The position numbers and the translations under genes were made by a program. Under the pieces are notes generated by a model. The model was not told the origin of the DNA and did not search any database. It was given only the letters and a program-made list of their open reading frames with translations. A DNA stretch of 64,000 nucleotides from Clavelina lepadiformis (lineage: Eukaryota > Chordata > Ascidiacea > Aplousobranchia > Clavelinidae), in contig NC_135245.1 in the NCBI RefSeq assembly GCF_947623445.1, forward strand, positions 19,847,501 through 19,911,500, read 5' to 3'. This document shows positions 11,665 to 45,784 of the stretch, in pieces; position 1 is the first letter of the stretch; every line of letters begins with the position of its first letter.

Positions 11665-12271
11665 AATCCTTGATGTGTCAAACCTTTATAAACTAAACAT
11701 TTTGCTAAATAAACACTAGATAGTATTTTCACGAAACCAAACAAATTTTCTTATTCAAACGTAATTGCAACAACAACAACAAAGGTAGCATTTATAGCCT
11801 TTATAGGAAAAGTTTTGGTTACAAGCTCTTTCTAAACTGTTCTTTAGAAAGAAAATAAAGCCGAGTTTTCTTATGGAAGAAACTGCAGTAAAACGATGTT
11901 AATTGCAAACATAAGCACAGCAAAATGTCACAGAAGTTTTCTTCGAAAGCAAGAAGTAGCTTTATATGTGGTTGATTGATAAAAAAAAGCAAGCTTAGTA
12001 ACGAATTTGAATATCATGGGTGGCCTACAGATTTTTATTTTTATTTTTTGGTCATGTATTCGGAAATTAGTTAGGGCAAACTCTGATTGTATGAAAGAGG
12101 TTCTGACATAGCATGACGTAATAACTAACCTAACCGCGTACTGGATGCGCGGCAACTTTGTGATTAACAAACAAACCTTTATTTGTGACGATTCTTATTG
12201 TACATTGCTGAGGTTATTTTGCCTTTGAGATAAAGAACCCGTTAATGATATTCTATTGTGAATGTATTTCC
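11665..12271. other. Intergenic AT-rich DNA
   Basis: After the presumed SDR-1 poly(A) site no exon, RNA gene or element end was recognised up to the modular repeat element that begins near 12272. Confidence 0.5.
11708..11713 (+). terminator. Candidate poly(A) signal of SDR-1
   Basis: AATAAA lies 44 bases after the SDR-1 stop codon, a usual distance for a short 3' UTR. Cleavage itself was not assessed. Confidence 0.5.
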
Positions 12272-12976
12272 CGGGATCACGAGAAGTGACCGTGAACAAA
12301 CTCACCGGCGACAACTGGTAGTGGACAACTGACCGGCAACAAATTGGCTGGCGATCAAATTAACCGTGACGTAAATTGGCCGGCGATGTAATTAACCGTC
12401 GATAAATTGGCCGGCGATCAAATTAACCGGCGACAAATTGGCCGTCAAAAGGTCAAAATTCCAATTCACTATCTAGTCGCTATCTAGTCACTATCCAATT
12501 TAGTATGTGTATTGCAGTCAAGGTTGCCACTCGTAGAGTTTTTTGGCCCCTTGTAGGGTGTAGGGTGACCCTACGGGTTTTTCACCTTTATTCATAGATT
12601 TCCTATTGTTACATGCATTTTCCCGGTCTAGACGAGTTGTTTGATGAGATTATGAAACAATGCGTTGTAGCCTATCTCATGTTGTAACAATGGACTCATT
12701 GCAATAACAATGGACACTTTAGTTAAGTAAATTGTCAGATTGAAGCTGTACGTATCATACGTATCATTACATATCATATACTACCATCAACTTAAACACA
12801 ATAATTCAGCACTTGCACGGTCAATTTACCTCCCGGTCAATTTTCATTCCGGTAAGTCTGTTCCCGGTTAGTTTGTTCGCGGTCAATTTACATCACAGTC
12901 AGTTTGTTCGCCGTCAATTTACGTCACGTTCAGTTGTCCCCGGTGAGTTTGTTCGCGGTCATATGTCGTGGAACCG
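12272..12976. mobile_element. MITE-like element with modular inverted terminal arrays (about 0.7 kb)
   Basis: The left arm repeats short units such as GCGATCAAATTAACCG and GACAAATTGGCC. The right arm carries the same units in reverse complement (CGGTCAATTTACGTC type). The core ACAAACTCACCGG followed by GACAACTG occurs near both outer edges in inverted orientation. About 300 bp of unrelated AT-rich sequence lies between the arms. There is no coding capacity. Ends are given to within about 10 bp and no target duplication was found, so the superfamily is open. Confidence 0.6.
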
Positions 12977-13315
12977 TATTTTCCCACCAGTCCAGGCGCA
13001 ATTCGTGCGATGCGTGCGCCAAAGGTCAGCTTGCTGGACATTAGGTACACGCCGAAGGCGTTATGCCATCTGCGATCTCAGAAAGAAGACACAGTGCACT
13101 TTTCTGTCTAAACGCGCCAAGACGTGAACTGAATAAAGTTGTCGAGGTCTACCGTGTAATTTTAATGGAATAAATTTGTAATATAACTTTCTTATACATT
13201 TATAATATTTGCTTCAGGCAATGCAATTCATTTGAACGTCGCAATGCATAAAGAGAAAACTTTACCACTGGTAGTTTCCAAGTGGTACTGATAATGGCAA
13301 AAAATTGTGGTTGTT
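12977..13315. other. Spacer left of the SDR tandem duplication
   Basis: No gene or repeat with definable ends was recognised. The left breakpoint of the duplicated unit lies at the right end of this stretch. Confidence 0.5.
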
Positions 13316-13569
13316 CTCTCACTGTCATCGAGTTAGTTGTGCGTGAATGATTAAACGAAAACGATACGCTATAATGCGCTCATGGAGGCAGCAGAGAGCA
13401 AAAATTGTGAAAATATGTCAATATCTCAAAAATTACAAAATCAAACTTTATAAAACAACCGTGGATAGACAGCTGAACATTTTTTAGGAAAAGTCACCAA
13501 ATTAACTGTACGCCATGTTTTGCTGTGACCGTGTCCAGGGTCGGCCACACAAAGGCAAGATAGGATTAA
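13316..13569 (-). mobile_element. Truncated piggyBac-like MITE (unit 1)
   Basis: The reverse complement matches the first part of the complete MITE at 22617: GTGGCCGACC, CACAGCAAAAC, GTGACTTTTCCTAAA and GCGTATCGTTTTCGTTTA occur in the same order. The outer end is the TTAA at 13566-13569 (terminal triplet changed from CCC); the other end is lost at the duplication breakpoint. Confidence 0.75.
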
Positions 13570-13869
13570 CCCTTACCAGCTAGAAACTCTTTGTTATAAA
13601 GCCAGAAATATCACCAATATGATGACAGTCATATATAAGTTATTAATTCAATTAGAATGTAATCAATTGTAAAACTTTTCTATTCGTCTATCATCATAAC
13701 ATTAAAAATCAAATGAATTTTACTTCCATTCAACAAAAAAAGTAAAACTTTGAAACTTTACATTTGAAAACAAGGAAAGACTCATACAAATATATTCTGA
13801 ATAAGCTGAATAAACTTTAATATGAGAAGATCTTTAGTTGGGAAGATTACGAAATAATTTGTAAGGATC

Positions 13870-16259
13870 TTATTGTCCGGTCAGTGTACGACCACCGTCC
13901 ACTCTCAGACAGGTTCCAGTGATCATCGTTGCTTTGTCAGATGCCAGGAACAAAATGGCGTCGACCACTTCTTCCACTTTGATGTTTCTTTGATTGAGTG
14001 GATGGAGCTTTTTGTTTTCTGCCCATGTTGCTTGAATTTGTTCTTCATCCAAGCCCATTGGTGTCAGGGCAACCGTTCCAAAGTTAGTTTCCACTGCTGC
14101 AGGACTGTACACAAATTGCCGATTTTTTGAACGAGATTTTTGAAAGTTTTTTGAAGTGCGAACTTGTGTAAAGTTGTTTACTGATTACCTATTGTTTTCC
14201 TTCAACTATTTATGACTTATTGATAAAGACCTTCACCTCTAAGCAAATAAACAAATAATTAACTAGAGTACTTTATACTGGTAACCAACTTGTAATTTCA
14301 ACTTACTTCACCGCATTCACTCTTATTCCATTCTTTGCAAGTTCTACAAATTAACAATCAATATTAAACAACAGAGGTGTAAGCTCCTAATCTGGAAGGT
14401 TAATATCTTAGTCATGACGAATGTAACGTAAAGCAACAACAACAAGGTATGACAATTACAGTATAAGCCAACCTAACGCTGAAGCCTTGGTGATATGATC
14501 GCTGGCAGCTTTGGTGGTGCCGTAGATGATAAAGCCAGGTATGGTATATACAGAGCTTGAAATGCTCGATATGTTGACGATGTTGCCTAAATGGAACAAA
14601 CGTAGTCATACGACAACTGAAATTAAGATAGAAAATTTCTAATCATCATACCTTTAGTTTTCTCCAAATATGGAAGAGCAAGTTTGGTGAGATAAAGAAC
14701 AGCTCTGACATTGACGTTGAAACATCGATCAAATTGATCCAAAGTAAACTAAAAAGTGAAAAATGGAATAAGTGATGTTTGGAGAAAAACTTTGGGACAA
14801 GTTGAAAATTTTATTCTTCAAATTACAGACGACATAGCATTTGAATTTATTCTTAATCTCACGTCAGCAATCGGCGACATCGCAGCAAATCCAGCGTTGT
14901 TGACCAAAACATGGATTTCTCTAAACTTATCAGCAGTCTCTTTTATAATCCTTTCCATGTCATCTTGCTTTGAAAGGTCACCGACAATATGCAAGACCTA
15001 CAAACACAGTATAATTTTATATTTCATACAGCAAAATATGAAGGAAGTGGACTTTAATCGGTTCAGTATTTGCTACGTATGCATGTGTGTGTTGGACTGA
15101 CTGTAGAGCCAAATGTTTTCAGCCTCACGGCTGCTTTCACAGACGATTAAACATCCAATTTTTGATTTTTGGTTTGCTGTTAGGTAGCTTATGTTAAGCA
15201 TTGCCACTGGAAGAACAAAAAACAAGTGTTATTGCTTGTGTAATGTCATTTCATGCAACATTCAGTATTTGAATTATGAATGCAAATTTAAAACTAGTTT
15301 GTCATACTCACATCTTTTGCTCCAAGCTTCTTGCATTCATCGGCAACTTGAGCAAGTCTTTCTTCATTACGACCAGTCAGGCTAAGCAAAGCTCCTTGCT
15401 TGGATAATTCCTTTGCTGTGGCTGCTCCAATGCCACTGGATGCGCCTTTAGAAAGTATTCATTGCAAAACATAACGAAAGACTGCACTGTAAATTGAGAT
15501 ACCTAGTTACATTCCAGCCTGGTCTGGAATCCCGCTAAGCATCAGGTTGTTATACGCCTGTATAACTGTGTTTTAACTAACTCTAAACTTATTTACACAA
15601 ATTCCAAATATCATTGACACAACGTTGGAGATACGCATTTTACAAAATTAAATACAACAACGGATTATATGCTCTAGCTATGTACGTGGCATATATTGGT
15701 GTACCGACACTTAATCACGCGACACTTAATGTCCAAGTGATTATGTGTCGCGTGATTAAGCGTCGCGTGATTAAATGTCCTAGTGATTATGTGTCGGTGA
15801 TTAAGCGTCGCGTGACTGACTAAGTATCGCGTTATTAAGTGTCACCAAACCGCATATATTAACAGAGCTCTCATAACATGTTTAGAAACTGGAGCTACTA
15901 CGACCTTCTCACAAGCCCGAGGTTCGGAGGCCGCAGGCGTTTATCATCTTTTAGCGTCTTTCATCTTTTACTGTACGTTTATCACTTTTTTTTAATTGTT
16001 TTTCATTCTTTATCGGTTATAACCTTTGGAGTTTTGGGCAAAGTTCTATTTTCAATCTGTTACATCACATGCAGTGGGACTACACCTGCGTATAATGTGT
16101 TCCCCTTTTAATCATTACGGTTTTGATTTGTGTTATTGCGATTCAACACTGCTGGGGCTTTATAGTGCCGTAGAGTTTACATGAACCACCAACATATTTC
16201 ATCAAGCTTGTATGCATCTCACCTGTTATGACGATCACTTTTGAAGCTAATTCACTCAT
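13870..16259 (-). CDS. Short-chain dehydrogenase/reductase, copy 2
   Basis: Classical SDR, 262 residues. Coding exons from the start: 16223-16259, 15312-15445, 14863-14997, 14652-14748, 14473-14586, 14307-14343, 13870-14104; all joins keep the frame. Seen: start MSELASKVIVITG, GASSGIG loop across intron 1, VLVNNAG, ISSISSS with the catalytic serine, YGTTK with catalytic Tyr and Lys, and the C-terminal LRVDGGRTLTGQ. The start is supported by the same MSE/FASK start in copies 3 and 4. It lies in duplication unit 1; intron 1 holds the 156-bp insertion at 15696. Apparently intact. Substrate unknown. Confidence 0.93.
15696..15851. mobile_element. 156-bp insertion with inverted repeats and a 7-bp target duplication
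   Basis: Starts TTGGTG and ends near CACCAA, with direct repeats GCATATA on both sides (15689-15695 and 15852-15858). The inside is built from inverted units of the type CGCGTGATTAAGTGTC. Unit 2 and the SDR-4 intron have a single GCATATA and no insert, so both show the empty site. No open frame. The family is not recognised. Confidence 0.75.
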
Positions 16260-17634
16260 TTTCTCTGGGTATGAATATTTTCCAGAAGAAACAATAAACT
16301 GTTTTGACCACTAAGGCGTCCACCTAATGACGATATTCTGCAACGAAATAGATTTGGAGTTGTGTGTTTTAAAATTGTAATGAAAGAACTTTCGAATCAG
16401 AGTTAGAAACCCTTCAACAGGAACAGTGCGTAAGATGCTGTTTATGTTAAGAAATTCAAAACTAACGGACTATCGCTTTTTGAAGTGCGCTAAAACTAAA
16501 TGCACCACTATCACTTCAGAACCGATCTATGACCGGCCACCTCGCTGTACGTACTGTTGGCTGTAATAATGCGCATTGTTTAGATTCTTCATACCACACT
16601 GCTAGTAGTAGGCTAGCTTAAGTACAACTTGAAACATATATTAACGAAGTGATCGCTATAAAGCTTATGGGTTCTTGGTAATGCAGGCAAATTGTTTTAG
16701 GAACATGGAATCGAGATCACATACTGACATTTCAAAAATAACCCCAAAACCTTTAAACTTTGATCTGAATCAGAATCCTACTTGGTCCCTAATGGCGAAG
16801 ACTGTGTGAGAACGCCACGATGGGGTAAATAGTCAGAAGAATGCTCTGGTGCCATACAAAGTGAGTTACTGTATAAATGTCAAATACTGCTTTTGACGTC
16901 AGTCCATTGTCCACCAAGAAGCGCTCCCTTGCATAATATGAGGACATGCCATCTACAAAGGTTATACAGAAGAAGTTTCGAATAGAGCTTTCAAATTACA
17001 ATCTTTGCTCAGAAAATGTAATGCTTGTTAATAACGCATATAGCGGCTTGTCGTGCGTTTGCTTCCTTATTGCTAGCCTGCGCCTTGCAAAACGCCTTCG
17101 GAAGCTATATGGCCTATATATATATACGCTCTTCAGCTTGGTACAATCACCGTTTTATATGAGCCTATGTACACAGAGACGTCGGAAGTGGCCTAAGCAA
17201 ACAGTATAGCGAGCTTAGCATATAGGGGAATCATCGCTTTGAGCCGAAAGTCACACGTTTATAAAATGTGAAATATTTTCACCCAATTTCTCAACTGCTT
17301 ACGCTGTTTGACGAGTTGGGTTAGTATCAAATCTCGATCAAAGGTGTTAAACAATCGTGCAATTACCGCCTTTAGTTACTAAACAAACGTTTGTTAAATT
17401 CAATTGTACCATAGCTAGACACTTTAATAAGATTTTAAAAAGTTATAATTTTAACAGTATAACCTTCAATGTAGGTATATTTTTTCTGACCAATACGGGA
17501 TAGCCAACGATGGCGAACATCTGTTACAAGCTTCAAGCACTTGCATAAGAGACACGACGTGTGCCTTAAAGTACTTGGCGCTTCTCTGAGGTAACCTGCT
17601 TGAAGCACAACAAAACAAAAGCGCACAACGCAAG
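16260..17634. other. Upstream region of SDR-2
   Basis: Holds the SDR-2 promoter side and a shared non-coding segment, repeated in unit 2. Its first part also recurs inverted ahead of SDR-4 (GATAGTCCGTTAGTTTTGAA there), so it is a good place for conserved promoter elements. A TATATATATATA run lies near 17116. No coding exon was identified. Confidence 0.55.
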
Positions 17635-18066
17635 TGCAATAGAGCAGAGGCCACCAAAGCTCCTGACAGTGTCTGTACTGGAGAAGGCGGTAAATGCCGT
17701 AAGTGTCGTTAATATATTCCCCCTTTAATTGTGCGGAGAGAAAACGACGGCGCTAACCAGTACAGTAATATCAAGGACTGGCGATGTGCAATGGATCGAT
17801 TTTTAATTGAGTTTTTGTTTGAGTTCACGTTCCAGTTCAGTAACTCCGAGATTTGCATTTTCAATTATTCGAGCTTGGTATAACTTATTAGTTCTGTTAA
17901 TTTCTGATAATTTTTGGAAGTTTATGGTAACGTGAGCTACGAAATTTGTTGGCATTTTATTGCAATTATCAAGCTTAGCTTTAACTCAACATATTTTTCT
18001 GCATTTGCAGCGGTTCCAGAACCACATGACTTTGTAAAAAAATTGGTTAAAAAACCAAGCGATTAA
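17635..18066 (+). CDS. Candidate terminal exons of a small unknown gene (unit 1)
   Basis: Two exon-like blocks, about 17635-17698 and 18011-18066, with a good donor (AATGCC|GTAAGTG) and acceptor (TTTGCAG|C). In one frame they read ...CTGEGGKC|PVPEPHDFV...KKPSD and stop. In the other frame they read ...LEKAVNA|RFQNHMTL and stop. Differences from unit 2 favour the first frame: mostly silent or conservative (K to E, L to M, V to L). A preceding block at 17515-17590 ends in a donor-like GAG|GTAACC but would need an intron of only about 44 bases. No family recognised; start codon not found; could be non-coding. Confidence 0.25.
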
Positions 18067-18450
18067 GTTGTAGGTGTTTTTTATTAATTCCTGCTCCTTT
18101 CTTGTCCATTATGTCCAAAAAGAAGAAGATAGATATTTATATTGATTAATTTAATTAATTAATTAATTATTAGATTAGCCTCAGTTTCAAAGATTGGTGA
18201 GCAAATGTTCCTACAGGATTTCTAAAGAAAAATTAGTCTATGCTGTGCTCATCCTGTCGCATCCATAAACATTTGGCAAACGCTTTGGTCAGTTTTTGAT
18301 TGTGCGAGCGACTTGTACGGGGGAGATTGTCGTTTACCTATCAAACGAGTTTCCCTGCTTAAAGCTCAGATGCGTTCCTTGTCAGTATGATTATCACTTA
18401 TGAGTGTATCCTATTGTTGGATAGTTGGATCCCTTTAAAGAACAACCACT

Positions 18451-18704
18451 CTCTCACTGTCATCGAGTTAGTTGTGCGTGAATGATCAAACGAAAACGAT
18501 TTGCTATAATGCGCTCATGGAGGAAGCAGAGAGCAAAAATTGTGAAAATATGTCAATATCTCAAAAATTACAAAATCAAATTTTATAAAACAACCCTGGA
18601 TAGATTGCTGAGCATTTTTTAGGAAAAGTCACAAAATTAACTGTACGCCACGTTTTGCTGTGACCGTGTCCAGGGTCGGCCACACAAAGGCAAGATAGGA
18701 TTAA
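18451..18704 (-). mobile_element. Truncated piggyBac-like MITE (unit 2)
   Basis: Sister of the truncated copy in unit 1, with the same truncation point and the same altered end at TTAA 18701-18704. It was therefore present before the segment was duplicated. It is much more diverged from the full-length copies than these are from each other. Confidence 0.75.
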
Positions 18705-19021
18705 CCCTTACCAGCTAGAAACTCTTTGTTATTTAGCTGGAAATATCACCAAAATAATGACAATCATATATAAGTTAGTAAATTTAATTAGAATGTAATC
18801 AATTGTAAAACTTTTTAATTCGTCTATCATCATAACATTAAAAATCAAATGAATTTTACATCCATTCAACAAAGACAGTAAACTTTGAAACTTTACATTT
18901 GAAAACAAAGAATGCCTCAGACAAATATTTTCTGAGTAAGCTGAATAAACTTTAATATGAGAAAAATTTTAGTTTTGAAGATTAGGAAATAATTTGTAAG
19001 GATCTTATTTTTGTAAGGATT

Positions 19022-21498
19022 TTATTGTCCAGTCAATTCACGACCACCGTCCACTCTCAGACAACTTCCAGTGATCATCGTTGCTTTGTCAGATGCCAGG
19101 AACAAGATGGCGTCGACCACTTCTTTCACTTTGATGTTTCTTCGATTGAGTGGGTGCATCTTTTCGTGTTCTGCCCATGCTGCCTTAATTTGTTCTTCAT
19201 CCATGCCCATTGGTGTCAGGGCAACCGTTCCAAAGTTGGTGTCCACTGCTGCAGGACTGTGCAAAAATTGCCGATGTTGTTTGTTTGTTAAACGACATTT
19301 TTGCGAGTTTTTTGAAGCAAGAACTTGTGTAAAGTTGTTTACTGATTACCTGTTGTTTTTCTTCAACTATTTATGAATATTTATTGATAAAAACCTTCAC
19401 CTCTAAACACATGCACAAATATTTAACTAGAGTACTTTATACTGGTAACCAACTTGTATTTTCAACTTACTTCACCGCATTCACTCTTACTCCATTCTTT
19501 GCGAGTTCTACAAATTAACAAGAAATATTAAACAACAGAGGTGTAAGCTCCTAATCTGGAAAGTTAATATCTCAGTCATGACGAATGAGTGGATTATGAA
19601 CCATGACGTTTGTAATGTAAAGCAACAACAACAACAAGGTATGACAATTACAGTATAAGCTAACCTAACGCTGAAGCCTTGGTGATATGATCGCAGGCAG
19701 CTTTGGTGGTGCCGTAGATAATAAAGCCAGGCAGGGTATACACGGAGCCTGCAATGCTCGATATGTTGACGATGTTGCCTAAATGGAACAAACGTAGTCA
19801 TACGACAACTGAAATTAAGATAGAAAATTTTTAATCATCACACCTTTAGTTTTCTCCAAATATGGAAGAGCAAGTTTGGTGAGATAAAGAACAGCTCTGA
19901 CATTGACATTGAAACATCGATCAAATTGATCCAATGTAAACTAAAAAGTGAAAAATGGAAGAAGTGATGTTTGGAGAAAAGCTTTGGGACAAGTTGAAAA
20001 TTTATTCTTCAAATTACAGATAACATAGTGTTTGAAGCTATTCTTATTCTCACGTCAGCAATCGGCGACAACGCACCAAAACCAGCGTTATTGACCAAAA
20101 CATGGATTTCTCCAAACTTATCAACTGTCTCTTTTATGATTTTTTCCATGTCTTCTTGCTTTAAAAGGTCACCGACAACATGCAAGACCTGCAAACACAT
20201 CATAAATTTAAATTTCATACAGCAAAATGTAAAGGACGTGGACTTAACCAGTTCAGTATTTGCTACGTATGCGCGTGTGTGTTGGACTGACTGTAGAGCC
20301 AAATGTTTTTCAGCCTCACCGCTACTTTCACAGACGATTAAACATCCAATTTTTGATTTTTGTTTTGCTGTTAGGTAGTTTATGTTAAGCATTGCCACTG
20401 GAAGAACAAAAAAACAAGTGATGTTGCTTGTGTAATGTCATTTCATGCAGCATTCAGTATTTGAATTGTGAATGCAAGTTTGAAATTAGTTTGTCATACT
20501 CACATCTTTTGCTCCAAGCTTCTTACATTCATCTGCAACTTGGGCAAGTCTTTCTTCATTACGACCAGTCAGGCTAAGCAAAGCTCCTTGCTTGGACAAT
20601 TCCTTTGCTGTGGCTGCTCCAATGCCACTGGATGCGCCTTTAGAAAGAATTCATTGCAAAATATAACGAAAGTCTACACTGTAAATTGAGATACCTAGTT
20701 ACATTCCAGCCTGGTCTGGAATCCCGCTAAGCATCAGGTTGTTGTATAAGCCTGTATAACTGTGTTTTAACTAACTCTAAACTTATTTACACAAACAACA
20801 AATATCATTGATACAACGTTGGAGATACGCATTTTACGAAATTAAATACAACAACGGATTATGTGCTATAGCTATGTACGTAGCATATACATAACATAAC
20901 TGCCATAATATGTTTAGAGGCTGTGGCTACAATGATCTCACAAACCTGAGGTTTGGAGGCCGCAGACGTTTATCCGTCTTTAATCTTTTACGTTTATCAC
21001 CTTTTTTAATTGTTTTTTATTCTTTATCGGTTATGACCTTTGGAGATTTGGGCAAAGTTCTATTTTCAATCTGTTACATCACATGCAGTGGGACTACACC
21101 TGCGTATAATGTGTTCCCCTTTTAATCATTACGGTTTTGACATGTGTTATTGCGATTCAACACTGCTGGGGCTTTATAGTCAATGTTCCCTCTAAGCTGC
21201 GCGCGTGCGCAAATGCGCACTGCTGACACGGTCTCCGCGCACAAGAAAAAATCCAACCTGAATTGAAAATAAAATAAACGCATAATAATGGCTACAGTGC
21301 GCACGTGGCTCGTCTGATGTTGCTCACAGTGGTCCAAGGGACTGCTCAGGGAGTTAGTGTGTTTGCTCAGACTCGTGAAAAATTAGAGAGAACATTGTTT
21401 ATAGTGCCGTAGAGTTAACATGAAACACTAACATATTTAATCAAGCTTGTATGCATCTCACCTGTTATGACGATGACTTTTGAAGCAAATTCACTCAT
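19022..21498 (-). CDS. Short-chain dehydrogenase/reductase, copy 3
   Basis: Classical SDR, 262 residues, sister of copy 2 by tandem duplication. Coding exons from the start: 21462-21498, 20504-20637, 20054-20188, 19844-19940, 19665-19778, 19471-19507, 19022-19256. Exon sizes are the same as in copy 2. Seen: MSEFASKVIVIT start, GASSGIG, VLVNNAG, ISSIAGS, YGTTK, and the LRVDGGRELTGQ end. Differences from copy 2 are scattered amino-acid changes, for example LLKQEDMEK for LSKQDDMER in exon 3. Intron 1 carries the hAT MITE at 21181. Apparently intact; substrate unknown. Confidence 0.93.
21181..21397. mobile_element. hAT-type MITE, 217 bp, in intron 1 of SDR-3
   Basis: Terminal inverted repeats CAATGTTCCCTCTAA and (reverse complement) CAATGTTCTCTCTAA. 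It is flanked by a perfect 8-bp target duplication TTTATAGT (21173-21180 and 21398-21405). The matching position in unit 1 (16159-16166) has a single TTTATAGT and no element. An 8-bp duplication and CA...TG ends are hallmarks of hAT transposition. No coding capacity. Confidence 0.93.
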
Positions 21499-31364: not shown

Positions 31365-32067
31365 TCACACTGCTATTGCTGATCTTGTTGCGCCACGTGA
31401 CCCCTTAACTATGCCACAGGCAGCGCCTATTAAAGCGTTCAACTTTCTCTCCGGTATATGTAAGACTTCACATATTCTAGGTTGTTTGCTTTCGATTTCG
31501 TGGCAGATGTTGAGCATCTGTTGCTTGAAAATTGCTTCTTGTTGCTGATGAGTGATGACCATTGGACCTCCCGCATTCGTTTGCAAAATCATTCATCAGT
31601 TTCTGAAGGACATTGATCAAGGAAAAGTTCTCTGGAATAGATCCTTTAATTGTTCTCCAACTTCCGCGCTGTCATTTAATGCTCTGATGAACCGTCCTTG
31701 ATCTCGATATTTTTCTGAGATAGTCGGATAGAAAAATGTAGTCAATAGAAGACGTGCTGTTTCTATAATGCCGCTTTGTGATTCGGGGTAAGAACAGTTT
31801 GCTAGGAATTATAAACGCGCAAACTGTATACTCTGGCAAAACTTTGCCAACAACACTGAGCAAAGACATATCTCTGCAGTTGTTACAATCACCCTTACCA
31901 ATTTTTACGATCTCTGCGTGTCTCATGCTTGGGTATTCCAACATTTGCACAGGACCAGGGATGACGTCACTTTCGGGAATCAACCAGGGATGCCGTCCAA
32001 ACCAGGAGCTTTTCGAGAAGCTGGTCTTGCCATCTTTCAGCTTCTCCAGACTTGGCAATTTTATCAT
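31365..32067 (-). mobile_element. Broken LINE fragment (reverse transcriptase N-terminal part)
   Basis: The frame ending at 31672 reads MSLLSVVGKVLPEY and then RNSTSSIDYIFLSDYLRK. These fit the reverse-transcriptase block RGISLLSVxGKVL and RSTIDxIFxxRQLxEK common in metazoan LINEs. The YxDD region and the endonuclease are absent. A second open frame (31365-31592) follows and may be unrelated tail sequence. Truncated and inactive. Confidence 0.6.
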
Positions 32068-33112
32068 CCGTGAACAACTTTAGTGTTTTGCATGTGATGA
32101 ACTGTCTGAAGGGGACGAACGCTTTTAGAGCAAATACAGTTGTTTTTAAGGCTCAGATCTAAAGCTCATTAATCGCCAGCGTTTGAAGTATATTCGGTTT
32201 CATCAGTTATATTTCGAAGTTATTTGCAAAACAACCTTTTGCGTGCTCGGAAGTTGGTCTGTTTCCTCGATACTCCGCCTACTCCCCTTTTATAGATGTT
32301 AATGTGCAGTTGTCTTGCTATCGATGGCAGCTTGGAGCGGTTGTAAGTTTTCTATGATCCAGTTATTTTCTGCGGCTTTAGGCAGTCCTATTTTATCGGG
32401 CTGAGGATACATAGACATAAAATCGATTGACAGTTAAGATAGGTTCAGACATACGTAGCCTACAAGCAGACGACGGCCACATCAGTAAAAACTGGCAGGA
32501 TGGGTGTCTAGTTTACGAAAGGGCCTGCTAACCCAAGCAGTTGAGCTAGCGATCAGTCAACTTTTAGATCAAGGTCGGTAAGGATTATAAGGCTACCTTA
32601 GCTATAAATGGTATAAAAATCTACATTTATTATGCTCGTATAATATGATTAAAGACTTGAAGGAAGAAAAACACCGGTATATGTCTGACATCACAGGCCA
32701 TTAATACTGCGAGTTAATCTTTTGTAACTGCAAGCTCAGATGACCCTAAATTACTGGAACATTTATGGCTCCCGTGAAAAGAAAACTTTTCATAGATACA
32801 AGTCGAGTTATGATAAAAATCTATGTTTCAAAAACAAACACTAAATTTCAGCTTAATTACATTCAAGAAAATGATGCACGGACACTCGAGCTCCAAGTCG
32901 ACCAAGAGCAAACACAGTCAGACATCCGTCAGTCAGACACAGTTAGGCGTTTACATGTTTTAATTGTACAAAGTAATATTTAAACTCAAGCAAGTCTGAG
33001 TGGTTCTGGATTTGCCACTGAGTTTAACATCTGAGCACAAAGCAGTGTAAGTGCTTAGAACAAATAACATAATAACATCAACAGACGCAGGTTTTTTAAC
33101 ACCTGCACTACA
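32068..33112. other. Intergenic region 3' of the RNase L-like gene
   Basis: Likely holds the 3' UTR of the minus-strand kinase-KEN gene at its right end. No other gene or repeat was recognised; an open frame at 32765-32983 shows no family motif. Confidence 0.5.
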
Positions 33113-36100
33113 TTACCTTGAAGGTAACTTGATGTTGTTACGTTTCAAAAGCTCAAACAAATGAGCTAAGAGATGCGGGTAGGGTCCAACTAATGAATCC
33201 AAGAAAGTGTCATAATTGCAGTGACCAATGCCAGAATAACCGAGGACTTCTTTAGAAATCTTCTTCTTCTCATTTATATGAGCATCCTTTGAGTAAAATA
33301 TTTCCAGATTTCAATTCTTATGAAATAACGAGCGACCAGGTTATAATCAAGTCGATAATGAAGTCACTTAGTTGGGTCAATTTAAAACAAGTTTTCAGCT
33401 CATAGTGCAATATTTAATATCAGACTTAATACATATATCGTATTTGCAGCATTATACCGATGCTATGTGGAAGAACAATACAGTTATGATCATACAAATG
33501 GTTGTTACATGTTAATGTTACATGACATACATTAATATTACATGCTTGCATGATGTATCTTTCAGTTAAACAAAACAAACGTACCATATCCCTTATAATT
33601 TTAACAAGGTCAAAGATGTCTTCACATTTTGAGATTGAAAACTTTTTCTTTTCTTCTTTCAAGGGAGTAGGAATATTTTCAAGTTTAATTTCAAATTCTT
33701 TTTTCTCTTTGTCATCAATATCAAATGTTACTAACGCCGAATCAAAAAATTTCACAGTTGTTTCGAATTTTTTTGACTTTTTTCGTTCATCACGCAAAAA
33801 ATCATCGGCAGTCTGTAAAAGCACATTCCAATGTTTCTCTTTATAAATAATACATTTATCAGCAAACTACATCATCATCAAGCAACAAACATAGGAAAAA
33901 CACTGTAGGTAATAAATCAATAATTACCCAGTAAAAATTTATTTTTTCATCAGAGTTCCAAAACAAAGGATGATTAAAGACTTCTTCTATGCTTGGACGC
34001 TTTGTAGGATCTACTTGCAACATGCTCTTTATGAGGATAAAAGCAAGCACTTTGTGTTCTTCAGTTGGAAAACCTAGAAAATTGAATATAAAGTGATTTC
34101 AGTTGCCATAAAGACGAAGCTTTGGCTGACAAAAAACGATCTAATGCTTAAAAAATTTCAATGTTTACCAAAACATTCAAGAAAAACTTCAAAGGAAGGT
34201 GGTTTCTCATCTTCAATGTTGGAAAGCTGTTTGGCATAAGTTTTGCCAAACGGATGTTTACCGCTAGTAAAAATATTGAAAAATAGAACGCCAAGGGAAA
34301 ATATATCTGCTGATTTTTTCTGCAAGAAAAAATCTTTTTAGACACTTTTGCTGTTTCTGTAAATGACTGACTCTGACTTTTTAAACTTACCCAAGAAGTT
34401 GAGTTTTGATTATCCACTGGATGATGCTCTGGAGCCATGTATGTAACTGTGCTGTGGGAGGTGGTGGGCGCGCTTGACTGACCAAGATCTAAGACTTTAC
34501 TCAAACCAAAGTCGCTGACTTTTACCACCAGATCACAACCATCTTCTCGAATCAAGAAATTCTTTGGTTTGATATCTCGGTGAACTAAGAAAAGAACAAC
34601 ACGCATTGATTACAGTTCTGGTTCCTGACTTATTCCAACATACTACAGTCTATGAAGAAAACCTGAAGAGTGTAGGGACGTTAGTAGGGATATTTGTAGG
34701 GACATTACGGCATTTCACATTTCAAAAAACTCATAACTTTGGCATCGCAGCAACATTTAGAAGTCAAAGATTTGCGGAGGCACTGGTTATCTTAACTTAT
34801 GCTATTCGGTCTTAGTTTACCTGCCGAATTAATGATCTGACTCCGTGGTTGCGTGCGGTTAGAAATCTCCAACCTTAACGTGTTACTACTGCTACTAGCC
34901 GAAAGCTATTACGATTAACAGATACAGTGTATCAGAAAACAATCCTTTATTGTAGGAACTGTACAGGTTCCGATTAACGTAATACGTTCGTACGATTCGA
35001 TATCTCTCTGTCTGCGCTGCTACTCGCATATTAGCACGAGTTTATACAGCGGAGCGATGTGAGCGGAAGTATTCAACAAAATATACACAAATAGGTCAGA
35101 AATCGCAAACGATAAACTAAGCGTTGGGCAATGGGGATTATACACAGTTTAAACTCGGATGCTATGAAATCACCTGGTAACGTACTAAACGGCGCTTTCA
35201 CATAAAGTTGTTTAGGGAAAGTTTCCAAATATTAAGCGACAATTGCAGTTTCATCAACAAACAACATTTCAATAAACAACTGGCGAATACTTTCCCACGA
35301 ATGATATATTGGTATCGGATGTGGCTCCCAAGCCACTACAGATTTAATATAATTCTTCATTGAATAACCTGCACTTAGAGGCCTTGACAAGCTTCTACCG
35401 AGCAAAACGGAAATTAAAAAAATTGATCTTCATATGAAACAAAAATGAAAGAAAATGTCAAGACAAATGGATTTTCACCATGGTCAGGAATTTAAAAATA
35501 TTGACCACAGAAACAGCTCACAGCATGTACGAGGACAAACCACACTATCACCGCTAGAGGGCAGTGTTTTTACTCTAGCTTCATTTATTCGATCATTGCT
35601 AAGCATTAACATCCATTTTAATGAAAAGAAATCATCAAACTTAATTGACTATTAGAGGGCAAAGTGATAGATAGTGATAGACTTCTCTTACAATCTTCCC
35701 ACTAAAGCATCTTCATCATACACTTTAATGTGCTTTAAGTTACTTAGTGAGATCCAGCTCCAGGTTGACATGGTGGAGTACCCTGGGGCCCAGTTTGATG
35801 GGGACACTTTCATTGGTAAACATTTTATAACTAGATTAAAGCCAGTATGTTAAATACTTGGACAAAAACTTAAGTAACAGCGACGGCTTAAAGAAAGATA
35901 GCACCACTATAAAAATCATATATATAGGCTTAATCTTGCGATTGCAACTCCAAAATATTAAAAACAATAAACAGGTTCTAGTGCCATACTTGTCAAATGA
36001 AAATGGTAAGGCTGTTGTCTATTACACGCTGTTATGCAGGCATTGTGATTACTGATTACATATTAACAAAATAAGCTTGCATCTTTGGCTCCAAATTTTT

Positions 36101-39100
36101 AGTTCAAATCATTAAGTGATAAATGTGAAGTATTTTTCTCGGAGAATATTGCTCTGCATGCTCCATTGCTTTCAAAATGTGTAGAGTGCAAAAATTTGCT
36201 TTGCAAGAGTTGTTTGAAAAACTGCTTAAAAGGCCTTGAAATGAACATATTCTTATATTTACAATTACTTGCACTTGCAATTTGGATAAAGCTTTCATAG
36301 TAGCTTCACATAGCTTTCACTTAATATTGTAATGGTTACAGCTGATACAATTTCACAAACAAGAAAACACAATAAATGAAAAAGACATGAAAACACCAAA
36401 ACTTGGTTTGTGAGGGGTATCGTCCCCCTCCCAAAATACGCTAGAGTTTGATAAATCTAATATCTATAATAGATATTTCTTGAGTCATTGACCTGTGCAG
36501 CCAATTTTCGATCAGTTTTGTTTTAGAAAAACAACATTTTTCAGTGCATTTTAAAGCCGTTAACGCCAAGTACGCAATGTAAATTAAATACTTGGAAAAG
36601 TAAAGATTAAATAAAGGCAAAATTTTAACTTTGATGAACATTTTCGCACATTGCAGTGTGTTTCATTTGTGGCACAAAAGCAGCCGATCAGAAAAAAAGT
36701 GGTGAAAAAAGCCCTTTAACTCTCATCAAAACCTGACCCTGCCAGGATCCACTTGATACGGCTCAAGAATGCACTCATACACCAAAGCCTCCAACTTTTG
36801 ACTTGAGACATGCATTATCGAGTAATCATCTGCTAAGACCAAAAACAATGAAAAATTGACTCAATCTCTACATGGATTGAAGTTGGGAGAAAGGTACAAT
36901 GATCAAAACAAAAGCATGTTCACCGTGGATCGGACACGGAAGTATTATAATACCCATAGAAATGATTTTAAGAAACAAACTCATACGCATAGCACAATTA
37001 GAAGGTGGTTGCCTCGAGGATGACCATTTTGTTACCATTACCATTTTCGGTACCAAGTCATGGCAAAGAAACAAATACCGCAAAGCGTTAAGCAGGCAAA
37101 AAATGCCCTGAGAGGTTATTGAAAAATTTATCCTTGCAAATTGTCAAAATGACAGTTGTTAGAATAGGGTGAGATGCACCAATCCTCTTCCACAGAAACA
37201 AAATATTAGTCGAATTAGTTTCAAGCAATGTCAGTAAGCTCTTTGGTGCTTTTTCTTTGTTTTTAACTGTTAGGAAAATTGGAATAATGATCTTTTTAAC
37301 TTTGCTACCACACACAAGGAATACCCTAAACCATCATTTTATTCATTATCTTCAAATAACTCATCTGATCACTAAGAAAGAAACGAGATAGAAGGAAGAA
37401 AACTATTGCAAATAAACCTTTTTGAAAAATAAAGTTTTCATATCAATGGAACAGAGAAAGAAAGTCTTACTCATGTTGCATTCCATGTGAAGATTGTAAA
37501 TCCCTGTTGCTGCTTGCTCACACAACTCCAGCAGTGTAGTCTTATACTTTTTGCTTCCATCTTCCATTGACCAGTACTAAAAATACATCACATAACAACA
37601 AAGTGCCAAATACAAAATAAAAACAATGATATGAAGAGTTTTTTCCATCAGCTTTTCCTCTCAAAAGAGTCACAAAAGAATTTATCCCAGCTCAAATTTA
37701 ATTTAATCGATTTCCAGAATAGCAAACACCATTCATGTCGTGTCAATGCTCAAAAATCCATTTTTAAGAAGTTGAATAAATGCCTCAGTTTAAAGTCCAG
37801 CTATACAGTTATAGCATAACAGCATTAAAAATATAATTTCAAAGAAAGAAAATATTGAAATTAAAACATCTACAAACTGATTTTCAATGACAAACGAAAC
37901 TACCTCTAAAAGGTACTGAGTATAAACGTTTAACGAATGACTAAGTTTAAATTTCAAGCAAAACTCAAAGCCTGAACGAAATTTCCTGTCGAGTTTGATA
38001 GCGTTCAAGATCTGACATACCATGTCACATTTGACATGACCAGTAACAAAAAGTTTATGCACACAGCAACGGACTCACAACTTGCTCAAAGTTGAACAGT
38101 AAGTTGGAATCTTACTATAGACACTTGGTCTCTATTTAGCATTCACACAGTACATAGTGCTCGAATAAACGCACAGCTATAAACAGATTAATTTACAATT
38201 TTACATTAATTTACAATGCAAGCAAGGCACATCACTCCTTACTAGTGCTTTGTAGCTAACCAACTTAACAGTAAGAGCTAAAAGTCAGCAGGTTGTAATA
38301 AAGACTAGTGAAATAAGTAAAATACAGATTTATGAATTTAACCAGGTCAAAGTCACTTTGAAGAAGTCCACATTATAATATTGCCTGGGCCAAGAGGAAC
38401 AAATATATCCGGCTCGGTCTCACCATGATATCAAACTTAAACTTGTAAAAGGTATTTTTGATCGGAAAATAATTAATCCAGGGGATTCTTAAACACCAAG
38501 TGACTCTTTTGCAAAGAAAAAGAACAGAATTATTCAACATATATATTAATGGTATGGCTAGCATACCTCATCAATTGTGCCGTCACAAAGTTCCATGTAA
38601 AATGAAATGTCACTGTCCTCCTTTAAAACATAACATATTTTACAAGCAGCAAGTGTTTTACCGTCTACTACTTTCTTACCACTGAAATGCAGATCTGTTC
38701 ATGAATAGGAAGTAGTATTCTAGGCCAATTATTTTAAATACATACTAAATCTAGGTTCTGCAATTGCTAGATTGCGAGCGCAACAACATCTTTATAAATG
38801 ATCTATCTTATTAAACTGAGTTAGAGTTTTCAGTCATTAAGTTCAAATGTGTTGTCAGATGAAACGGGGCCATAGACGTCATTGCCTATAGTTCAAGCAG
38901 TGCGCACTGATGGTTTGGCATGATTGCCTTTATCCTCGGACTGCTTGAAATTTTTCAGATTGTGCAAATTTGAATATTTGTAGCAACGATTCCAACAAAT
39001 CAGGCAGTTCTAAGCAAGAAACAAGGAACACTCTACTATAAAGATTCTTTAAAATAAGCAAATTTGATTCTACTTTATTCATTACAACACCAACCAAGTG

Positions 39101-40033
39101 AGTTCAAACACGGTTTAACAGACACAGAGTAACAAACAAACCATCAGTCAAGAAAACATAACCTTTTTGGCGGAGATAATTATATCTGTAAACTATATAT
39201 TGTATATATGCTATTAGTTAGGAAAATAGAGCTTACATCCGGCTTATCTGAGTCATAATACTGGATGACGTTGTCAGGAGGATGAGCTCCTCGGGTGATT
39301 CTCTTGAATGATTCTAGCTCATTTTCAATATTCTTGTACGCACTCTTTCTAACGCACTTCTCAACAATTACGGTTCCGTCCCTTTTGGAACACCTGCAAT
39401 GAAATTATTTAAACCAATCTGTGGCCATACACCAGTAGTATATGAGCTTAACACAGCACGTGGACTGTGTGGAACAATAATCAGTATCAGTAACTAAACT
39501 AAATTTTGGTCTAGTGTAGAAGTGCACAACCACAGGATGCATTTGTATACTAGATCTCAACTACTCACATTGTGACGTCATCTAGTTGTGCACTTCTACA
39601 AAAGACTTTACTTAATATAATAATTAATATAATAATACCTAAATTTACTTAATATAATAACAACATCACGTACTTGTAAATACGAGCAAATGCTGTTTCC
39701 TTAAACGGTTTTGAATCTTCTCGAAGAAAAAGCTTTCCAATATGTCCTATAATATGAAAATAAAAATTGTGGCATCTTTTCAATACTTTAGGCCAGGATA
39801 GGGCAGTCAGGCAATATGGTTGTACTTTTACGTAACCTGCTACAGGTGTCCAGTTAGCAAAATTATACTGTACTTCCATTTTACAATTACAAAAACGTAG
39901 GAATCTATGTACCTGGTGCCGCATTTTTTTGGTCCATTATCTGATTCTGTCATCGGCGTACCATTAACTAACACATCAAAATACTCTTTAAACCTGTTTT
40001 TCATAGGTTGTATTGAACGCGTTTTTCGAGCCT
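33113..40033 (-). CDS. Protein kinase with C-terminal KEN ribonuclease domain (RNase L/IRE1 family), 5' end not identified
   Basis: Coding exons in order: 39913-40033, 39674-39775, 39237-39393, 38567-38620, 37471-37576, 34391-34584, 34169-34319, 33928-34073, 33585-33812, 33113-33286; joined in phase to 476 residues. Kinase: IGKLFLRED at the N-lobe, probable ATP lysine in VIVEK, hinge [35 protein letters not shown], and HPLFW at the end, as in IRE1 and RNase [22 protein letters not shown] keeps the D, R and H spacing of the RNase L active site (D661, R667, H672); [11 protein letters not shown] matches the IRE1 KEN end. Role by family: dimer-dependent RNA cleavage in stress or antiviral response. 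No ankyrin repeats or lumenal domain were found upstream. The acceptor at 39775 was chosen for phase; one at 39746 looks stronger but breaks the frame. Confidence 0.88.
34585..37470 (-). other. Large intron of the kinase-KEN gene
   Basis: A 2.9-kb intron between the segment ending NLHMEC and the HRD exon, far longer than the other introns here. Apart from the orphan exon-like block and a possible old LTR stretch near 34.9-35.1 kb, nothing was recognised. Confidence 0.6.
35748..35815 (+). other. Orphan exon-like block inside the kinase intron, opposite strand
   Basis: A GC-richer 68-base block with an acceptor (TTACTTAG|TG) and donor (TTCATTG|GTAAAC) on the plus strand. It reads [19 protein letters not shown] in one frame. 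It lies in the 2.9-kb intron of the minus-strand kinase gene. No other exon of such a gene was found nearby, so it may be a relic or an exon of a nested gene. Confidence 0.3.
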
Positions 40034-40915: not shown

Positions 40916-41601
40916 AGGCTTACAGCACAGCTAAGAACACATCTCATGCGTTCTTATGGCGTTGAAACTGTACGGCAGCTGCTGTGTAGAAAAAGCACGA
41001 AGTATGTCTTACCGTCATTTGTCATTGAGACAATTTTTGCTGTTCAGTGTATTTTTAAACATTAGGTTTTTGTACAAGCATAAGAATGCTCGATCAGTGT
41101 CCAATTTGAACTTACCGAGAAATGTTCTTCATTGATCAAAAGTCGATAGTTGACAGAAGAATAAACTCAATTATAGCCATAAAGTTTTTGATTGAAGTTG
41201 CAATTATAATTACTTTATTAAGTGTTTCAAAGAAGATTCGTAGCAAATACTGTAGCCTGCTTTGTGCAACTGCTAAAACTCAAAAGGGCAACACGTTATG
41301 AGGATTCATGCAATCTACGAACTCTAGATGTCGCACAGGAGTACACCAATACTGTGAACGCAACGAGCCAGCAATCCAGGATTTTGTTTATTATCGACCA
41401 CATTAGTTGAGTGGGATTGACAAAATAATAAATGAATCTGAAGAAACATGACTTATTAAAATGATCACATTCGCACAGAACTCGTGAACAAATCACTAAA
41501 TAGGTCACGGATAAAGATAACGGAAGTGGAAGAAGAGGAATAATCTCCACACAAGAAATTCTGTCCCAGCGGCAAAGTGAGGAAAGTAAATAAATAAAGA
41601 T

Positions 41602-42266: not shown

Positions 42267-44696
42267 TTATCCTCCATCTGAAGAGTCGCTATCTTCAGAG
42301 TGGACTTCACCAGGGAAGTGATCCCTCACTAGATCAGCGTATGTGATCCATCCTTCAGCGATGCAGACGTCGAAGATGCGCTGAGGATAGAAGTGCTCCA
42401 CCCCGTGCTTCACCAGAACTTGAAAGAGGCGGATGAACCGTTCTCGTGGTGTCTCTAAGCAAGACATTCTAGTTTAACTAATATTTACATTACTGAGTTT
42501 TTGTCACCAGCTTAACTCTTTGAAAGAACTTATGTTCTATTAAGTAACACGGCATTTACCTGGTTTATTGACGTTGTTTATCTCCGTCTCAGGATTACTA
42601 AGAACGGTAAGTTTGCGAAAGATCCAATTCACATCATCTTTATCAACCTTTTTAGCCCATTTATAGCCGAAAGCATACACTAAAATAAAAAAGAATTAAG
42701 TCTATAAGACGACCGATGTCTCGATCATTTTCTCAAATCCAGCAACAGCAAGTTGCAGCGTAGCCAATTATAGCCATTTTCAAAGTCGTGATTAGAGTAT
42801 TTTCTTACTTTCTTTTTCACGTTCAGTGCAGTTTGAAATGTCGTCAGCTCGTGTTTCTATTTCTGGAGGTGGAAGGCTTGAGCTCTGTTGAATACCACTT
42901 TGAACTGGAACGACGTCAGTTTGTCCTCTGCATTCCACGATTCGGATTGGTCCACGCTTATTCTAAATTCAACATGATTTTTATTTATTGAAAAAGGAAC
43001 CGCAAGAAAAGTGTCCTTAAAAATCAACGGAGTTAAGAGTAGGAGACATGGCACTTGTAGTGGCGGCCATCTGCCATTTGGCTACATCTATTATTATAGG
43101 TGATGCATCTGTTATTGTGAGGCCAGTTTGAAAAACTGCTTTTAAAAGTTATTGACCAAACCAAACACATTGACAAATAGGCTACATATGTTTTAGATCT
43201 AACATGAATGACAGGACCACTAACCGTTTCAGTAACTAATTCCGGCAATTGATGGCTCAAATTCTGCGCCAAGTCCACACTACTTCTTCTTAGGGTTGAA
43301 CAAATCAAGTCAGGCTCAAGATCCAAATTTGGAAGCCTAAATCGCAACACGTGTCATCAAGTTGCATAAATTCAGTCGATCTTTATGGAAGTTGGATGTA
43401 GTTATGATAAAACTGTCTTAAAAGAAGTTTATCCTGTGAAAATCACTCACAAAGTGACGGTTTCATCTCGAAATGACGCCCTTGGTGAGGCTTGTGGCGC
43501 GGTCAGGCGTTCGATGGCTCTTCCTCTCTCCTTCAGTGAAAAGAAAAATGAAAGTTAATTGAATAACTCAAAGTTGGGGAAACTTCATGAAATAAATATC
43601 TGGCGATTCTGTACAACAGTAAAAACCATAGTTTCTTCTTCGCCTTCAGCATTCACTCGAGTTTTAGCTTTAAAACATTTTAAACGCCTCACCTTGTATT
43701 TTTTATAATAAAAAATCCCAAACACTGCTCCAAATATAACAATAACAATAAAAACGGTCAATCCACCAATCAATAGCCAGAAAACCCAACCTGAAACAGC
43801 AAGATCTGGTTTGTAATTACACCTCAGAATCAACATTTACAGTAGTCAGCAACAATTCGAACAATGTTGTTCATAAACACGACGCTTACTTGGAAGAGAA
43901 GTTCCAGATTGGTCAGGTTTCGTTGAATAACTGACTTTCGGCGTTAAGTGTTCGTTGTCTTCATTGTCTGTATTTTCCTCGATAGAATGATTATCTTGTC
44001 TAAAAAGCATTGTTTTCATGAATAGACGTTAAGATCAATTTAACCATTCGAATTTGACGATGCAAAATAAAGTGAATTTAACACATAAATGAATATAGAA
44101 CATTTCGCTTCTGGCCTGTCATCACCGAAAGCAAACAACAAAAATGTTTTCGTTTACTGACCGAGGCTGGACGATCTCGGTGCAGCTTTCAGTTCTTGAG
44201 TTTGTGAGTGAGTCGAAACCCGGCTGACATTTCTCACACTCTGTGTCGTCGGTGGAGTTTCCCGGCCCCTTCACCCCGTAGTGGATGGGGCAGTTTGAAT
44301 GAGGTTTGCATCGAGGTTCGATGTGAACTTTCTCGTCCATGAACGTCCCAGTGGGGCAGGGTAAGTACTGAGTTGTGCTCGGGAAATCGGGGCTGGAAGA
44401 ATAAAACAAAGTTACGTCACTTTATGACCCAAGTCCTCCTTCATTCATTAAGTTACTGCTGGTGTTGTTATGTAAACACAAGATGGCGCTCACTTGCAGG
44501 GTCCTGTATAATAGAAACCGGGGTTCAACCCGCAGCACATGATCTCGACTCCGTCAGGGGTTAGGACCCCGCGCATCTTGTAGGGGTTTATTCCCTCAGG
44601 TTTTAACGTATCAGGGCACTGATCAGGTTCATTTGTTTCTGGGGGTCGACTCTGGCAACCTTGGAGTGCCGACACCAGCAAAGCAAGGATGAACAT
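42267..44696 (-). CDS. TNF receptor superfamily-like death receptor A
   Basis: Type I membrane receptor, 429 residues. Coding exons in order: 44494-44696, 44162-44392, 43890-43999, 43693-43790, 43451-43530, 43225-43336, 42809-42956, 42560-42679, 42267-42454; all joins in phase. Signal peptide MFILALLVSALQG; cysteine-rich domain at about residues 25-140 (CCGLNPGFYYTGPC, PCPTGTF, NSTDDTECEKCQPGF); acidic stalk; TM at about 182-210 (WVFWLLIGGLTVFIVIVIF); C-terminal death-domain-like region at about 327-415 (WIFRKLTVL, ETPRERFIRLFQVL, YPQRIFDVC). The upstream ATG at 44714 overlaps a likely acceptor (GCGCAG|G), so the start after it was chosen and a 5' UTR exon is expected. By family it would bind a TNF-like ligand and recruit death-domain adaptors. 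Ligand unknown. Confidence 0.88.
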
Positions 44697-45784
44697 GCGT
44701 TGCCTCCTGCGCATTTAAAAAGGATTTCGATAATTCCGTTCTTTTAGATGCAAATCAACACTTTACTAAACGTTGGCAAAAAAGGATTAGTAGAAGAAGC
44801 ATAAAATATAGACAATGTACGAAGCGAGGTATCGTGAATTACTTTTTATGGACCACCTACCATTGCTCGAGCTTACAGGTTAACAAGATCATCTTGTGTA
44901 ATATGATGGTTATGGATGGATGAGGAGGATGTAGATAAATGCGCTTCAATTCACTTTCGAGCTGTAAAAAACTTATCCTGTCAACCTCGCCTGTTTAAAC
45001 AGCTTAAAAGTTTACTTTTATCGATCCTAGATGAGATGAAAACAGGTTCATATATTTATTGTGCTTTAAGATATTTCAATTACAAGAACAACTGAAACGC
45101 GCAATTTCTGAACCAGAATGAACTTCTATTACAGATCTCATCTATCAAGTAATCAATAGATATGAGGCGATTACGGCATAAAAGTTTTCAATTGTTGTCT
45201 TGGGTTGCTCAATTCTAGAAGAGCGCGAAAACCACAACCACGCGAGCGCGATTCGACGCAAACATGATTTCCGGAATTGCGCAATTTACGTCAACACGAT
45301 TTGTAGTTTTCCACTGATTTCAAACCGATAAACAGGTGCTTAAATTGAACAAAAATAAGACAAAGAGAAAATTCGCACACCGTGCGTTATTCCTTCCTTG
45401 CAGGACAAGAAACTTTAAAAATGTCGACACTCTGCTCTTTCTAAGCTTGTTGCACTCGACACGTCAATCTATAGCAAATACAAACATTTTCCATTTTTTT
45501 CTGTTTTCTGCGCGTTTTGATTTTTGTTTCAAATTTATTCCTTTCATGTTTCGATAAAAGCAACTATGAGCACGACCGGCCAGATGGGTCACTTTGTGGC
45601 TGTTTTACTGCAGGTATCTTTTGCAAACAATCTAAAAGTTGAGCTGACATACAATGCAAAACATCTCACCTGTCATCACATTTGCACTTTTCATGTAGCA
45701 CCTACACTAACTGGTCTACATTCGCAATGAGCAGAGTTACGCCACAGATGGGCGCTGAAAGATGTTTACAAACCAATAAGACTT

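Follow-up and report, generated by a model that had tools for sequence, protein, structure and literature searches.

The window analysed here, a stretch of 64,000 nucleotides of Clavelina lepadiformis (contig NC_135245.1, positions 19,847,501 to 19,911,500), carries on its minus strand, from position 33113 to about 40004, a gene of ten exons with an open frame, encoding a protein kinase domain followed by a KEN endoribonuclease domain. A kinase-KEN gene within 33113..40033 had been proposed in an earlier reading made from the letters of the window (the sequence-only reading), and Pfam detected both domains in the predicted protein, Pkinase with an E-value of 4.4e-37 and Ribonuc_2-5A, the KEN model, with an E-value of 4e-5 and 24.2 bits, just above the cut-off of 23.3. 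The closest solved structures are chains of human IRE1 (E-value 1.5e-36), and RNase L is absent among the 60 matches listed.

Exons 2 to 10 (39746 to 33113) have GT-AG borders with matching phases and give 427 residues without an internal stop. Exon 2 (39674..39746, minus strand as all exons given here) covers the start of the kinase N-lobe without its glycine-rich loop, contains no ATG, and ends in a phase-2 intron, as in the IRE1 gene resident in the same genome (judged by eye); similar exons are present in the family copies C4a, C2 and those of contig C9, described below. The VIVEK lysine and the helix-C glutamate are found in exon 3 (39237..39393), the hinge in exon 4 (38567..38620), the stretch up to the I/HRD junction in exon 5 (37471..37576), the activation loop, rich in serine and threonine, with MAPE in exon 6 (34391..34584), ADIFSLG in exon 7 (34169..34319) and the end of the kinase in exon 8 (33928..34073). 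The KEN domain is divided between exon 9 (33585..33812), which holds its first half up to D-x5-R (DLVKIIRDM), and exon 10 (33113..33286), which holds the second half with the catalytic histidine (DAH) and the stop codon TAA; the D-x5-R-x4-H spacing previously reported across an exon junction is thus present in the window copy. Exon 4 most likely starts at 38620, since paralogous exons begin at the same place, and about 20 residues therefore fall out of models that start it earlier. An acceptor at 38681 was rejected for its phase mismatch, and one near 38674, the phase of which would fit, is unsupported.

For exon 1 there are two coding options. The first (39962..40004) uses the donor ATG/gtacgc (donor score 6.8) and gives a protein of 441 residues; its peptide occurs once in the genome, in the window gene only, and an acceptor-like TTTTAG, possibly a spliced-leader site, ends about 30 nt ahead of its ATG. 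The second (39913..39937) encodes MDQKNAAP plus G, uses the donor CAG/gtacat (score 6.2) in frame with exon 2 and gives 435 residues, in which case the upstream ATGs would serve as upstream open reading frames. Both scores lie within the range of 2.0-11.5 seen for 48 donors of the family. The continuous model of 476 residues given before was discarded, because its in-frame join from ...KKCGT to exon 2 needs the junction ACCA/GGTACA, which is no GT donor; with the start of exon 4 also corrected, the protein has 441 or 435 residues.

Searching the whole genome (209 Mb, 95 contigs) with the window protein retrieved the window gene exon by exon together with an array on contig C9 and further places on C9 (10.63 Mb), C4 (23.85 and 23.93 Mb) and C2 (2.81 Mb), the remaining matches being general kinases. 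The family comprises 18 KEN-bearing kinase genes, five of them dispersed and 13 in the C9 array (13.79-14.40 Mb; L025-L037, L043, L048), where they alternate with Zic-like genes save for one adjacent KEN pair. The zinc-finger gene, which we take to be Zic from its sequence, has 15 strong copies in the genome, 14 of them on C9; 13 lie in the array and the fourteenth at 14.98 Mb. Because of this alternation, the number of KEN kinases on C9 may reflect a shared large-scale duplication.

Besides the window gene, 18 copies were compared, namely the 13 of the C9 array, C9b, C4a, C4b1, C4b2 and C2. In 17 of them the eight exons E3-E10 could be joined at GT-AG borders in the window phases without an internal stop; the script imposed these phases and picked borders near the expected ends, so that the joining shows that the model fits and not that it is unique. 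Exon 7 is shorter in C4a and C2 than in the other copies, and C4b1 ends after exon 7. At 23.93 Mb of C4 (L041 and L040) two copies lie about 4 kb apart, and in the first of them, C4b1, exons E3-E7 were identified and no KEN exons were found, making it either a kinase-only copy or a pseudogene. With the last KEN exon as query, 18 places were found genome-wide, corresponding to 17 other copies and the window gene, and in none of them does a stop interrupt the matched part. Compared with the representatives of the other five subgroups, the window protein shows 40-46% identity.

The KEN arginine is kept in all 18 sequences of the family alignment and the R-x4-H spacing in 17 of them, the window copy reading RDMDAH, and the R-x4-6-H active-site pattern of the KEN/HEPN superfamily thereby appears to be present in the window copy and in 17 of the 18 members. 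The residue after the arginine is asparagine in 16 sequences and aspartate in two (the window copy and C4b2). According to the available part of one study, the KEN histidine is essential, the arginine necessary, and the residue after it appears to contribute (PMC3710099). The exception in spacing is C4a, which reads R-x2-H, as dictated by the one open AG acceptor that was found in frame for its last exon; no AG acceptor stands at the usual place (L039 at 8862-8890), which shifts the histidine, and this represents a genuine loss of function, a case of unusual splicing, or an error of assembly or model. The Ribonuc_2-5A model was run on the window copy, C4b2, C9b, C2, C4a and, from the C9 array, L035: C4b2 (30.0 bits) and C9b (25.1) exceed the cut-off like the window copy, C2 (23.0) falls just under it, and C4a (17.4) and L035 (15.6) are below.

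In the kinase, the VAIK lysine, the helix-C glutamate, the HRD aspartate, the catalytic lysine and asparagine, and the aspartate and glycine of DFG are conserved in all 18 members, while the HRD histidine is kept in 17 and replaced by tyrosine in L031. The abundance of serine and threonine in the activation loop was judged by eye. At the position of the glycine-rich loop (GxGxxG), 11 of the 16 copies with an exon 2-like exon have [F/W/I/M]-K-x-T, and the window copy retains none of the three glycines. The description of an apparently active kinase with all its motifs therefore stands for VAIK, HRD and DFG and fails at the glycine-rich loop, which leaves the motif set of an active kinase incomplete; the nucleotide loop of the family kinase is unusual.

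The resident IRE1 was located on C4 at 5.50 Mb, where two exons are the sole matches of the Pfam KEN model in the genome. Its kinase and KEN pieces show 43-77% identity with human IRE1; in a frame upstream, a hydrophobic stretch resembling a transmembrane segment was seen by eye. Since the resident IRE1 occupies a separate locus, the window gene must be a different one. The same genome search with the KEN model detected no RNase L; it also misses the 18-gene family and is therefore not sensitive, although an RNase L conserved to the usual degree could still be expected to appear in it. The view of the window gene as an established RNase L was likewise dropped, its identities and KEN profile being closer to IRE1. 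The window protein shares 28% identity with IRE1 from this genome, from human and from yeast, and 17-19% with RNase L, and over seven family rows (one of them C4a with two added residues) the KEN identities are 18-28% to three IRE1s and 13-19% to two RNase Ls. In profile comparisons the family KEN matched that of IRE1 with 97.0% probability (E-value 8.4e-11, 119 columns) and that of RNase L with 59.8% (E-value 8.8e-5, 56 columns), IRE1 and RNase L matching each other with 93.2% (E-value 2.9e-7, 114 columns). The sequence-only reading had called the KEN domain RNase L-type and IRE1 less like it; profiles and identities show the reverse.

In a tree of 14 rows, consisting of nine of the 18 complete family members (including four of the 13 from the C9 array) and five references, the family forms a clade of its own with 100/100 support on a stem of 1.63 changes per column. 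Its sister group is not resolved, animal IRE1 being obtained (83/65) only when two residues are added to the C4a row that lacks the AG acceptor, and the family is not placed firmly inside IRE1. The proposed separate branch, distinct from the resident IRE1, is thus recovered, and the alignment and tree indicate that the gene belongs to a kinase-KEN branch of its own. Neither placement with a known relative was rejected, which is compatible with the intermediate position between IRE1 and RNase L that the sequence-only reading had offered as one option and does not demonstrate it: forcing the family together with RNase L, the branch of which is long (2.98), cost 1.50 log units (p of the approximately unbiased test, p-AU, 0.37), and forcing it together with its own IRE1 cost 1.58 (p-AU 0.18). 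These data give the label RNase L-type no support, nor do they disprove it.

These results bear on two explanations by descent. The family could have arisen by duplication of the resident IRE1, its members evolving fast, losing the lumenal and transmembrane parts and acting in the unfolded protein response, for example as helpers or dampeners of IRE1. The nearness of the KEN domain to IRE1, the constraint that was not rejected and the intron phases would agree with such an origin: seven of the eight phases over E2-E10 are the same in the family and the resident IRE1 (by eye; the comparison covered these two), the last intron interrupting IRE1 in phase 2 (AIR/NKK) and the family genes in phase 0 (RNM/ or RDM/). 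The long separate stem, however, and the fact that the resident IRE1 is not specially closer to the family than human or yeast IRE1 speak against it, and we regard this origin as a serious possibility that falls somewhat short of an even chance. Alternatively, the family could be an RNase L-type nuclease answering 2-5A (2',5'-linked oligoadenylate) made by OAS, whether its ankyrin repeats lie on exons that escaped notice or its lineage predates the gain of ankyrin. The genome does contain one OAS gene, a local likeness to RNase L exists in IRN[LM]xEH, and the tree tolerates the grouping; the KEN profile and the identities are nevertheless nearer to IRE1, no ankyrin was seen, and the C9 and C2 copies have no room for one, which makes this explanation quite improbable. 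In the available part of a survey, OAS is recorded in several invertebrates including Ciona, and no RNase L in the 12 lower Metazoa tabulated (PMC6307210).

The 5' ends are most informative in the C9 and C2 copies. In all 13 C9 copies the first methionine after the last in-frame stop sits 24-30 residues before the end of exon 2, and in four of them (L025, L026, L028 and L032) a stop lies two codons ahead of that methionine; in C2 an in-frame TAA precedes the methionine by 6 nt. In C4a the stop lies farther off, at 186 nt. In the window copy an in-frame stop is found 45 nt before the first candidate methionine, with the acceptor-like TTTTAG in between. Translation in the family thus seems to begin 20-40 residues before the first kinase intron, and the C9 and C2 copies, as far as their readable 5' ends indicate, leave no room for a sensor. 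A search with a small profile found no exon 2-like exons or 5' ends in C9b, C4b1 and C4b2.

Upstream of the window gene, an apparently separate TNFR-like gene on the minus strand (42267..44714; TNFR_c6 E-value 1.1e-6, 29.3 bits against a cut-off of 29.4) has its stop near 42267, its exons and stop having been placed by eye, and the room for upstream exons of the kinase-KEN gene is therefore about 2.2 kb. This neighbour has a signal-like start, the cysteine-rich TNFR_c6 match, a segment resembling a transmembrane helix and a short last exon of no recognised type. Between position 40004 and the TNFR-like gene no ankyrin repeat, transmembrane segment or lumenal part was seen when the frames were read by eye, Pfam having been applied to exon 1 and to two frames upstream of it and ankyrin searched for less than exhaustively, in agreement with what had been noted before. 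No other domain was seen by eye in these 2.2 kb, and Pfam returned from the two frames only a weak CD225 match; the frame concerned, of 101 residues (41296-41601, minus strand), resembles CD225/IFITM with an E-value of 3.3e-4, below the curated cut-off, and the match is probably due to chance.

A 16-base sequence which we take to be the Ciona spliced leader had 1671 sites within one mismatch in the whole genome, compared with 8 for the reversed control. Exact copies recur every 745 bp in a tandem array on contig C6; the listed part of this array spans 12.139-12.206 Mb, and the 745-bp units with the exact leader reach beyond it. The ascidian therefore very probably uses spliced-leader trans-splicing, and the Ciona-type leader array and the Zic-like array bear out the tunicate origin suggested earlier. 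In the available text of PMC6836712, Ciona robusta is described as having six tandem Zic-r.b copies and arrays of spliced-leader genes. Two other markers were uninformative: glycosyl hydrolase 6, taken as a sign of tunicates, returned no match, as did its controls, and a cox1 search aimed at the ascidian mitochondrial code retrieved no mitochondrial sequence.

With spliced-leader trans-splicing very probable in this genome, the simplest reading would be that the family mRNAs start at or near E1/E2 and the proteins at the kinase, which for the window copy is what we infer. An N-terminal sensor that escaped recognition, encoded on upstream exons, would fit the lack of an ATG in exon 2 of the window gene, the acceptor-like site ahead of exon 1, the 5' ends not found in C4b1, C4b2 and C9b, and the coverage by Pfam of only part of the upstream stretch. 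The in-frame stops close before the start in the C2 and C9 copies, the end of the TNFR-like gene nearby and the spliced-leader genes, which would account for an acceptor without upstream exons, make such a sensor unlikely. The "different sensor" suggested by the sequence-only reading is probably no sensor at all, the C9 and C2 copies having no space for it.

The explanation that we favour, and consider probable, is that the window gene, one of the 18 of its kind, encodes a sensorless protein of the IRE1/RNase L superfamily in an ascidian, namely a soluble serine/threonine kinase, probably located in the cytosol, that carries a KEN endoribonuclease at its C-terminus. In the most likely mechanism, its monomers would assemble through their concentration, through a partner or through a ligand in the altered ATP pocket; the assembled monomers would then cross-phosphorylate their serine- and threonine-rich activation loops, and the KEN domains of phosphorylated monomers would pair and cleave RNA. 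Control would be exerted by the level of expression or by partner proteins and not by a built-in lumenal or ankyrin sensor, and the cellular role may be RNA decay under stress or in antiviral defence.

Several observations weigh against this explanation. The model of the window copy was built from genome sequence alone and needs a first exon for which two donors are possible; a further coding exon upstream may exist in this copy and in C4a, and in C4b1, C4b2 and C9b the 5' ends were not found. The glycine-rich loop is absent from all 16 exon 2-like exons found. The KEN domain carries a tryptophan of known importance, which is common to all five IRE1 and RNase L rows of the alignment and is a gap in all 18 family rows. 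Where IRE1 and RNase L have asparagine after the KEN arginine, the window copy has aspartate; five positions before this arginine, aspartate is found only in the window copy and C4b2, with glutamate in C4a and C2 and glutamine in the other 14; and in C4a the R-x4-H spacing is apparently gone. On account of these changes (loop, tryptophan, the Asp/Asn positions and the C4a spacing), some copies could be weakened in their nuclease and kinase activity or lack it. Finally, a Zic-bearing array may have carried the C9 copies along as it multiplied.

Taken to its end, this would make the family a set of decaying pseudoenzymes carried along by tandem duplication, to which the alternation with Zic-like copies on C9, the missing KEN exons of C4b1, the lost spacing of C4a and the altered residues near the active site would all be congenial. 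The frames are open, however, in 17 of the 18 other copies and in the window gene, the dispersed copies having remained so despite their divergence from it. Moreover, over kinase and KEN together, the ratio of nonsynonymous to synonymous change (dN/dS), computed from the first 1000 nt, is about 0.41 over the 78 pairs formed by the 13 C9 copies and 0.42 when only the 12 equally long ones are taken; C4a and C2 differ by a dN of 0.18 and a dS of 0.74. Purifying selection is thus seen among the copies compared, plain decay is disfavoured by both comparisons, and pseudoenzymes are an improbable explanation. The family remains a plausible nuclease, judging by its retained residues, with doubts for some copies.

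Beyond the favoured explanation, and only tentatively, the family may form a third class among the kinase-KEN ribonucleases of chordates, one that lacks a sensor, is much duplicated in this ascidian and has a remodelled nucleotide loop. Its members would serve as inducible effectors of RNA decay, regulated by their dose or by partners and perhaps acting downstream of OAS, and would illustrate a kinase-KEN protein without the sensor of IRE1 or the ankyrins of RNase L. RNase L and the 2-5A pathway have their greatest importance in vertebrates, whose sister group is the tunicates. A KEN-kinase family that coexists with an ordinary IRE1 and one OAS gene, in a genome where the KEN model detected no RNase L, offers a comparison for a kinase-KEN nuclease freed from the sensor of the endoplasmic reticulum, and a useful one for the origin of RNase L; if active, the family would show the kinase-KEN module working without a fused sensor.

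Elsewhere in the window, reverse-transcriptase-like text NCRDMSLLSVVGKV was recognised by eye at 31675-32079 (minus strand), probably a remnant of a long interspersed nuclear element. Also by eye, an ABC-transporter-like frame was seen at 3049-3513, and two frames resembling short-chain dehydrogenases (VLVNNAG) at 10524-10871 on the plus strand and 20012-20437 on the minus strand, within about 10472-20437.

Among known systems, IRE1 (ERN1), the sensor of the unfolded protein response, shares with the family the order of kinase and KEN, the VAIK lysine, HRD, DFG and the KEN R-x4-H. The family differs from it in that no lumenal domain or transmembrane segment was found, in the missing glycine-rich loop and KEN tryptophan, in its identity of 28%, in the shifted last intron and in its separate clade. 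RNase L resembles the family as a soluble kinase-KEN protein without a transmembrane segment, a property that the family presumably has, and in the KEN arginine and histidine and the local IRN[LM]xEH text. Whereas the family keeps the HRDxK lysine and DFG, RNase L has HQDLQ and DFD; furthermore, no ankyrin repeats were seen in the family, and the identity to RNase L (17-19%) and the KEN profile match (59.8% probability) are low. No description of ascidian kinase-KEN families was found in the literature searched, which was covered in part and included PMC3710099, PMC6307210, PMC6836712, PMC4536996 and PMC4510121. The available part of PMC3710099 does describe a lineage-specific multiplication of KEN genes in another tunicate, Oikopleura, and in this respect the two cases are alike; in Oikopleura, however, the KEN domain stands alone, separate from the kinase (PMC3710099), whereas the ascidian family retains its kinase.

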